8,655 nucleotides of DNA from a bacterium (GTDB lineage: Bacteria > UBA9089 > CG2-30-40-21 > SBAY01): positions 1-8,655 of the forward strand of contig JBFLYA010000158.1 in NCBI GenBank assembly GCA_040757115.1, written 5' to 3'. The translations under genes and the position numbers were made by a program. Each line of letters begins with the position of its first letter. The stretch's first letter is position 1. Positions 202-2,757 of this stretch are shown here, piece by piece. A model generated the notes under the pieces. The model was not told the DNA's origin. It did no database searches and was given only the letters and a program-made list of their open reading frames with translations.

Positions 202-299
202 AATTATCGTCATTTTATCAGCAAAACTTTAGAAAAAACTGTGAAAAAATTTACTTAACACAGTACTAGGATATATCACCAATTTTATACTCTATCCTC

Positions 300-330
300 G
301 CCCCGTTTAGAAATGAATTTCTAACGGGGC
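300..330. repeat. Strong GC-rich hairpin
   Basis: GCCCCGTT-T-AGAAA (300-313) pairs with TTTCTAACGGGGC (318-330) to give 13 base pairs with one bulged T and a TGAA loop. No T-run follows on the plus strand (TCGTATT) and none is clear on the minus strand, so it is not a typical intrinsic terminator. It lies 25 bp before intron domain V, so it may be part of a degenerate intron domain IV or a separate interspersed palindrome. Confidence 0.5.
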
Positions 331-354
331 TCGTATTGAGGAGGTATAACTGAA

Positions 355-430
355 GAGCCGAATGGGAAGAATCCACAAGTTCGGTTCTGTGAGGGGCATT
401 AAGCACTGAGGAGGTGTTGAAGATGTCTAC
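355..430 (+). ncRNA. Group II intron 3' fragment (domains V and VI)
   Basis: Bases 355-387 match the 33-34-nt domain V pattern of bacterial group II introns. GAGCCG with the catalytic AGC opens it, GGTTC closes it, the two ends pair, and a small distal helix lies between. The following TGTGAGGGGC is the usual linker into domain VI. Domain VI can fold as GGCAT (395-399) with ATGTC (423-427) and AGCAC (402-406) with GTGTT (414-418). The internal loop GAAG (419-422) could hold the branch-point A. The sequence then runs CTACTCGAC, so an AY-type 3' end is possible at 430 (TAC) or 435 (GAC). No reverse transcriptase ORF and no domains I-III are visible upstream, so this is a 5'-truncated, splicing-incompetent remnant. 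The family assignment rests on recalled consensus, not on a covariance search. Confidence 0.7.
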
Positions 431-2757
431 TCGACTGAAAACAAAGTTTGGAGCGGCGACATTGGTGCTTGCGCTATCGCTTTTTGCCGGGGCTGTCGGT
501 TCTTTCGGGGCTGACCCAGCTAAGGGACCGCTGCCTATCGTCTTCTGGACCTCCGATCCTGTTTGGCCCGGGGATCTGGTGCTCGGATATGGCGCGGGGC
601 TGTCCGGTGCGGAGAACATCCGTGTTGTGCGACTAGCTGATGGTCCCCGCGGAGGGCCCGGCCGAGAGGGCTTCGTGCCGCGTGGCAGTGTGCGCTCCGT
701 GGGCCCGCTCCAGTCCAGCGATCATTCGGTCAAGTTTGTTCTTCCAGAGAATCTGAAGCCGGGCGTCTTTGGCGTTCAACTAGAGACGCCAAAAGGTCGC
801 ACTGCGGTGGTGTGGTTAAACCGTCCAGATGTGTGGTGGTGTCAGGGGGACAGAGGTCAAGCGGCCAGTCCTGGAGGGTGGGTGCGAGTTTTTGGAAGGT
901 GTCTGGGATGGAGCGGTCGTGCGATCACAACAGTGTTCCTCAGAGGGGCGAGGGGCGTGGCTATTTCTGCAAAGGCCGATTGTTACTCAGCCAGAGCAGA
1001 ACTCCCGAAGCACTTACCTGCGGGAGACTACGAGGTCTTTGTCCATAACGGCTTTGGTGGCAAATGGGGCTGGAGTCGGCCTTTGAAGATTTCGGTTGTG
1101 AGGCCTGAGGCTTGGTCTAACACGATCTTCAACGTGCGCAAGCTCGGCGCGAAGGGTGACGGCGAGTCCGATGATACCGCAGTAGTCGGCGAAGCACTCA
1201 GAAAGGCAAAGGAGGAGGGTGGGGGGAGTCGTCTACTTTCCCCGTGGCGACTACAAGTTTCGTGCCGCACTCGAAGTGCCGCCTAAGACCGTACTCCGGG
1301 GGGAGCGACAAGATCTGGTGCACCTCTTCTGGACCGGTGCCCTGGACAATCGCTTGGAGGCAGTCATTCTTGGAACGAACCAATTTGGCATGGAGGACCT
1401 CACGCTCACGTTCGTTGCGGCGAACAACGGCATTCTGGCAGACATCCCCCGCCAGGGCGCAGTAGCCATACCCCAAGTGAAGCAGACAGGTGAGCATGCC
1501 GGCAACATATTTTTGCGGCGCGTCAGGATGCGGTGGCTCCTCTACGGGGGGCACCTGAGCATCGCTCAAGCAAATCAACTTTTCACTGAAACAGCGAGGG
1601 ATGGCGGCTACGGGGCTGTGGGCTTCCTCTTTGCGTTCGGGGGCAGGAACATACAAGTCAGTGATTGCGATTTCTACAGTTCGGGTAATGTCTTTAATCT
1701 CGTCGAAGCCAAGGGTGCACAGATTACTCGAAACCGCTTCTCCATTGGGCGGTGCGGATGGGCGAACTTTGATGGCTGCGATGGTGTCATCTGTGAGGAC
1801 AACTCGTTCATCGGCGCTGACAATATGGTTCGCTCCGGTGTAACCTTTTGGTCCTACCAACTGCCGATGCGCAATGCCTATTTTGCTCGAAACTTCCTCA
1901 ATAACGTTTACTATCATGACCGAGAGGGCATGACGACTGATGGGGCGAGCGGCAAATACTTTGGGCCGGTTGTGGCCTCGGGCATTAGTTCAGTAACTCT
2001 TCCGGAAGGTGTGAGCTTCAAGCCGAATGAGATAGTGGGTCATACATGCTTTGTCCTCGACGGTGCAGGGAAAGGTCAATGGCGAGGTGTGATAGCCAAC
2101 GACGAGCGAACGCTCACGCTTGACCGACAGTGGGACGTGATTCCGGCAAGCGACTCTATCATTGGCGTAAACCACACCGTAGCACATCTGCTAATCCTCG
2201 GTAACACCATGGAGGATGTCGGAATCGCTTTCCAGTTTTACGGCACGGCTATGGATTCTATCGTTGCACAGAACCGGTGCGTACGGGCGGGCGGGTTCTT
2301 CAGTCATGCTGCACGCTATCCGGGTGGCTCCAAAGATGAGAAAGACACCCAGCCTCAATTCTTCGTTCAGTACCTCGACAATGAGGTGGTTGAAGGCTAC
2401 ACCCCATTCGAGATTCGAGGCTACGACTACGGGCAAGGTCACTCGGTGATCGGCGTTCAAGGTTTCTCCTGGGGAGGCGGAAAACTGGAATGGAAATGGC
2501 CATTGGCCCTGGGGTTTGTGATTCGGGGGAATAAGCTCGACTCCAATGCTAAGATCCGTGTCCATGGGGTAGCCGACGGCGATGGTCCTCCCTTGGTCGA
2601 GGACGTAGTGGTGGAGAGGAACACATTGTCTTGTTCCCGCGTCGGCATCGACGTCGGCCCACGCTGCGTTGGTATCGTCATTCGGAGGAACAGCTTTCAC
2701 GAAGTAGACCTGCCGTTTGCCGGCGCCGGCCTGCCAGGGGCCCTGGTTGAGAAGTGA
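423..2757 (+). pseudogene. Secreted right-handed beta-helix protein (pectate-lyase-3/GH28-like), frameshifted
   Basis: The product is about 777 residues if one base is removed. The apparent ATG at 423 follows AGGAGG by about 8-10 nt, but both lie in intron domain VI, so the native start may have been displaced. An N-terminal signal peptide is visible (LVLALSLFAGAVGSFGA). Two beta-rich, IPT/Ig-like segments follow (about residues 38-130 and 140-230). From about residue 235 comes the hallmark entry of the pectate lyase superfamily 3, FNVRKLGAKGDGESDDT, then GGGVVYFPRGDYKF, then many short beta-helix rungs to the end. Reading frame changes at 1221-1226: removing one G from the six-G run restores the family sequence exactly. 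Such proteins are usually exported polysaccharide-active enzymes or cell-surface proteins; no substrate can be assigned. The gene is markedly GC-rich compared with everything else here, suggesting transfer or a chimeric join. Confidence 0.75.

Follow-up and report, generated by a model that had tools for sequence, protein, structure and literature searches.

A fragment of a group II intron at the start of a bacterial beta-helix gene probably belongs to a mobile intron lineage that targets translation starts

Specialised lineages of bacterial introns have been the subject of earlier work. In Azotobacter a group II intron reportedly lies in the stop codon of groEL; like the lineage described here it occupies a signal for translation in an essential gene, and the unspliced RNA is said to be possibly still able to yield protein; there it is the stop rather than the start codon that is occupied, and there is no spare start. 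Bacterial group II introns mostly lie outside housekeeping genes (review, PMC4424553). For start codons within domains V and VI we found one precedent, C.te.I1 of Clostridium tetani, whose domain V/VI motifs hold the annotated start codons of downstream ORFs (PMC3919590). This feature is shared with the present introns. C.te.I1 is a single locus with four repeated domain V/VI motifs and alternative splicing beside S-layer genes. It is of class B and is found in a genome without an intron-encoded protein; its 5′ boundary is predicted to follow directly on a stop codon, and it has not been presented as a start-codon-targeting lineage (PMC3919590). In a search of open-access literature no report was found of a mobile intron lineage that targets start codons, nor of one built around start codons within domains V and VI.

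The window, by which we mean the whole stretch of 8,655 nucleotides that was analysed, is the complete contig C158 of the draft genome G000 (4.3 Mb). A preliminary description had recognised in it a group II intron remnant with a domain VI hairpin and a 3′ end at about 430–435. The Rfam covariance model for domains V–VI of group II introns (RF00029) bears this out, matching 353–435 over the full model (1–77) with 41.2 bits (E 1.5e-5; cut-off 40 bits), and the domain V/VI stretch folds much more strongly than its shuffles (z −4.5, 0/200). On the forward strand, domain V occupies 354–388 and the domain VI hairpin 390–433, both from the model and the fold, and A429 is presumably the branch point of domain VI, judging from its distance to the 3′ end. 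That end can be set exactly at 435, where the matches of relatives stop and after which the sequence differs for each copy, which puts the junction between intron and 3′ exon at 435/436 (C/TG, forward strand). The terminus ..GAC is the same as in relatives and fits the AY end of group II introns, while the 3′ exon (TG AAA..) fits an insertion of the form ATGN/TG, the window's own 5′ junction having been lost.

The window holds only part of a group II intron. This fragment runs on the forward strand from the end of domain III/IV to the 3′ splice site (270–435), includes a presumed domain IV stem (286–345, forward strand; from the fold and comparison with relatives L100 and L105) and lacks domains I–III; a search of the rest of the genome found no 5′ part of the intron either. 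The text upstream in the fragment, tatatcac..tatactctatcctcgc, is common to the window and contig C44 of G001. Positions 1–269 are made up of repeat DNA and an insertion sequence end. Four further contigs of the genome agree with the window as far as ..CACAGTACTAG (about 269–272) and diverge after it, so the insertion sequence end has taken the place of the intron's 5′ part and cuts the intron at 269. As the 5′ part is missing, cis-splicing is impossible in the window, and the beta-helix gene must therefore start from domain VI or not at all. Two small elements were also seen here. Bases 1–126 form a separate repeat of 126 bases found in at least 35 places in the genome, often at contig ends. 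Within the domain IV loop, 299–329 forms a small hairpin that looks perfect (GCCCCGTTTAGAAATGAATTTCTAACGGGGC); it has CTCG on its flanks, is absent from relatives and is possibly a tiny mobile hairpin; a longer CCCCG..CGGGG element lies upstream of a decayed intron copy in G005 (C56).

The start available in domain VI consists of a Shine-Dalgarno sequence, AGGAGG, in the apical loop and an ATG in the 3′ strand of the hairpin. The Shine-Dalgarno sequence, which is conserved in the lineage, had been placed at 410–415 and is in fact at 409–414, one base away. The ATG (423–425; both features on the forward strand) lies eight bases beyond it and 13 bases before the last intron base, C435. As had been proposed, it is inside the hairpin and in frame with the beta-helix gene (M-S-T-R-L-K-T-K-F...), with the frame open to 1286, and directly after the intron the frame enters MSTRLKTKFGAATLVLALSLFAGAVGSFGA.., by eye a signal peptide. 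The interrupted host gene (3′ exon, 436–2757, forward strand) probably encodes a secreted beta-helix protein, judging from its ORFs, its composition and a Pfam Beta_helix match below cut-off. Its GC content is about 57% in an otherwise AT-rich contig, with the jump at about 440. A frameshift near six consecutive G (about 1219–1228) splits it, where five G would keep the frame open, so that it may be a pseudogene or the run may reflect slippage or a sequencing error. No homologue of the gene, with or without the intron, was found in the phylum; a scan of the genome collection with the protein gave one weak relative and no close homologue for comparison of the native start, and no homologues were found in viral contigs or among PDB sequences.

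By searching 19 genomes of the phylum with 270–435 of the window we found matches in 15, most of which reach the base equivalent to 435. Copies with domains V and VI number 33 in G006 and seven in G015, where they sit at contig ends, as a repeat that breaks the assembly would. Past the junction, every copy leads into a different gene. Nearly all 3′ ends of the lineage read AGGAGG-N(6-9)-ATGTCTACTCGAC. Since the pattern GGAGG-N2-14-ATGTCTACTCGAC is present in 12 of the 19 genomes and a reversed control pattern in none, the coincidence of Shine-Dalgarno sequence and ATG is not due to chance. Three matches to the pattern in viral contigs, none with an intron around it, were set aside as chance, two being near-identical GC-rich repeats and the third also GC-rich. 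The preliminary description had called the coincidence of Shine-Dalgarno sequence, spacing and frame unusual, and it is indeed real, and is a design found throughout the lineage and not an accident at one gene. Its suggestion of an intron insertion at the 5′ end of the gene that now supplies the start is supported by the covariance match and by these relatives, where the intron occupies start codons of dozens of unrelated genes with the same in-frame arrangement in domain VI.

The frame of the domain VI ATG is open for at least 60 codons after the 3′ junction in 49 of 62 junctions, and in none of these 49 is either alternative frame longer. The remaining 13 lack a long in-frame ORF, and a few remnants with the Shine-Dalgarno sequence and ATG are found among such cases. 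Products recognised by Pfam include phosphoglycerate kinase (PGK), Cpn10 (GroES), glutamine synthetase (GlnA), histidyl-tRNA synthetase (HisS) and LytB/IspH, together with rubrerythrin, RidA, a PilT-like ATPase, 3-phosphoglycerate dehydrogenase and a bile-acid symporter.

The position of insertion was examined at 5′ junctions located using the 5′ half of the intron from G012 and G006. All 36 clean junctions, from six genomes, consist of a start codon plus one base followed by GTGTG or GTGCG (GTGNG), and these intron 5′ ends agree with the GUGYG of group II introns. The start codon is ATGN in 35 and GTGN in one, with a Shine-Dalgarno-like sequence upstream in nearly all. Counted back from the junction, the exon base at −1 is A in 29, G in six and C in one, −2 is always G, −3 always T, and −4 is A in 35 and G in one. 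A degenerate junction in G010 (C101, ..cgtgtacg) does not fit the clean pattern and is excluded from the 36. The first base of the 3′ exon is A in 49 of 62 junctions. Empty groES sites (ATGAAA...) are present in G007 (..AAATGAAATTAAGACCA) and in G000 and G005 (..ACAATGAAACTTAAACC), and comparison of these sequences with the occupied site of G006 (..ATGTCTACTCGAC/AATTAAAACCATTAGCA, also given as ..CTCGAC/AATTAAAACC..) confirms ATGA^AA as the insertion point. The intron therefore follows the fourth base of the gene and precedes the fifth (ATGN^NN). On paper, joining the exons by removal of the intron would restore the native frame and codon. The stretch that begins with the domain VI ATG and closes the intron has 13 bases, a multiple of three plus one, so this ATG has the same phase as the displaced ATGN.

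A candidate for the element that recognises this site is found in domain I. The loop TTCATTTG, or a close variant, is present in introns of several genera (G003, G006, G007, G012 and G017) and of Caedibacter, and in the G006 and G007 copies it falls within a predicted hairpin loop. The domain I hairpin loop UUCAUUUG is complementary to the target AAAUGA, the complement being UCAUUU, and with G-U pairs allowed UCAUUU fits at least 35 of the 36 targets at each position from −1 to −4; the one GTGA target fits as well. By its position and complementarity the loop fits EBS1, and it presumably pairs with the target in that role. No anti-Shine-Dalgarno EBS2 was found on inspection of domain I by eye.

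Other parts of the intron were recognised in relatives, with domains I–III present (RF02005 in L170, L173, L174 and L179), a Pfam RT match in the copy from G012 and RT remnants, by eye, in copies from G007, G014, G015 and G016. No intron RT was recognised in the genome of the window; its RTs were considered as intron proteins and read instead as an RT joined to a primase-like protein and an AbiA-like protein. By reading, L033 (G000, C42) has a group II-like RT that continues in a single frame into TPR-like repeats and a primase-like domain; similar ORFs are found in G002, G003 and G010, and a Cas1-like ORF adjoins in G003 and G006. The same genome as the window has a second, different group II domain V–VI in L005 (C39, 8030–8106; 56.9 bits) with the 3′ end ..CTCTACCCGAT and, ahead of it, an apparent RT N-terminal remnant by eye. 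In L221 (G006, C376) an intron of another family (GTGCGCCAAGAAAAGC..) is nested inside domain I of a start-codon intron; other copies of this family in G006 come after ..CTTTGA or similar. L104 (G017, C75), with domain I pieces, domain V and a long domain VI of about 120 bases that ends GGGGGTTATGATGCCTACTCGAC before a gene, is a diverged member of the lineage.

It is very probable that the window contains the decayed 3′ end of a mobile intron lineage that targets start sites and whose domain VI acts as a spare start. The domain I loop UUCAUUUG would pair with AAAUGA, an anti-AUG that reads the start codon of the target, and the lineage inserts into translation start sites at ATGN^NN. Domain VI brings its own Shine-Dalgarno sequence and an ATG that lies 13 bases ahead of the 3′ splice site, in the phase of the displaced ATGN. 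Splicing would restore the native host gene, whereas an unspliced or broken copy could still be translated from domain VI with the addition of Met-Ser-Thr-Arg. In the window, with the 5′ half of the intron gone, the domain VI start is the only good start remaining. Position, frame, conservation across genera, the empty site and the complementarity of the loop are the observations from which we infer splicing, initiation at domain VI and the pairing role of the loop. A stronger form, in which the start site is both target and cargo, so that base pairing with the start codon finds genes and domain VI is a portable initiation region, seems to us evenly balanced between right and wrong. If true, insertion into essential genes would be tolerated even without splicing, decayed copies would turn into permanent new start sites, and branching and ribosome binding would compete on one hairpin.

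In a further reading the intron is a control of expression, branching and the opening of domain VI by ribosomes being mutually exclusive. This is compatible with a spare start and would add to it. The helix with the branch point holds the ATG in its paired 3′ strand and the Shine-Dalgarno sequence in its loop. As a point against the spare start, the ATG of intact copies is mostly base-paired in their predicted fold, so that an intact hairpin may allow only weak initiation. A comparison of predicted folds did not find decayed copies to be clearly more open at the start than intact ones. The insertion into unrelated genes suggests selfish spread and not regulation, however, and we consider such a switch possible but rather unlikely.

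It is less likely again that the start in domain VI is a useless inherited accident, with EBS1 targeting start codons and expression occurring only after splicing. The near identity of the G006 copies, which thus count as few independent events, would allow this, as would the occurrence of the 3′ end CUACUCGAC on introns outside the lineage. These are plasmid introns of Bacillaceae with an LtrA-type RT, which resemble the lineage in domain V and at the 3′ end but differ in domain VI, where there is no ATG at −13 and no Shine-Dalgarno sequence before one. The plasmid introns of Peribacillus (Bacillaceae) end CTACTCGAC and that of Stanieria TTACTCGAC; because these introns, among the nearest domain V relatives on plasmids outside the phylum, lack an ATG at −13, the ribozyme does not need the Shine-Dalgarno sequence and ATG. 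Within the lineage, on the other hand, both are kept although the domain VI loop otherwise differs from genus to genus and in Caedibacter, and the frame of the ATG agrees with the phase of insertion. The Caedibacter intron, on plasmid pKAP298 of C. taeniospiralis (NC_005915.1; AGGAGAAACAGAAATGTCTACTCGAC), appears from its sequence to be a member of the lineage, sharing domains V–VI with AGGAG..ATGTCTACTCGAC at the 3′ end and the EBS1-like loop TTCATTTG; it differs in that its 3′ neighbour is a 10-codon ORF overlapping the next start. Its RT scores just under the group II RT/maturase cut-off, the nearest RTs being the Bacillaceae ones (45–47%), whose introns have no ATG there. As this intron carries the Shine-Dalgarno sequence and ATG, the variant is not confined to one phylum. 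A short 3′ query against plasmids and phages gave chance-level matches only.

The decayed copies speak most directly against such an accident. Several lack domain V or are reduced to nearly only the last 26–29 bases, and without domain V splicing by the normal route is impossible. Decayed copies with the Shine-Dalgarno sequence and ATG nevertheless stand before intact genes for independent phosphoglycerate mutase (iPGM, in G007), electron-transfer flavoprotein subunit (EtfB, in G013), a SurA-like protein (G006) and a MacB-like protein (G003), and this retention in copies without domain V or domains I–IV, ahead of intact genes that include housekeeping ones, is the strongest argument from sequence that the domain VI start may work. 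The argument is weakened by the way the decayed copies were sought, through the conserved 3′ end, which favours copies retaining the Shine-Dalgarno sequence and ATG; one without the ATG was found (G002, C102; GGTTGATACTCGAC). Traces of decay include a 5′ junction with part of domain I (G003, C167), domain I pieces (G006, C105) and an RT piece (G014, C226).

That an intron end was simply joined to a GC-rich gene, in a mosaic junction of the kind first offered as an alternative or in an assembly artefact, is suggested by the GC jump and by the window being a whole contig of a draft genome, but is highly improbable since it leaves unexplained the same in-frame type of junction, with Shine-Dalgarno sequence and ATG in domain VI, at dozens of other genes in other genomes.

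The finding in the window is real and is one example of a wider system, whose anatomy is read directly from the copies and which would involve splicing and use of the spare start. The lineage occupies dozens of gene starts in one genome, including those of the normally essential PGK, GroES, HisRS and IspH. This suggests a route by which introns may spread through essential bacterial genes without reliance on efficient splicing, with mobile elements rewriting the start sites of genes, and the copies offer natural material for studying how splicing and translation compete on a single RNA hairpin. For gene finding in the phylum it also advises caution, as N-termini beginning MSTR- may derive from the intron.
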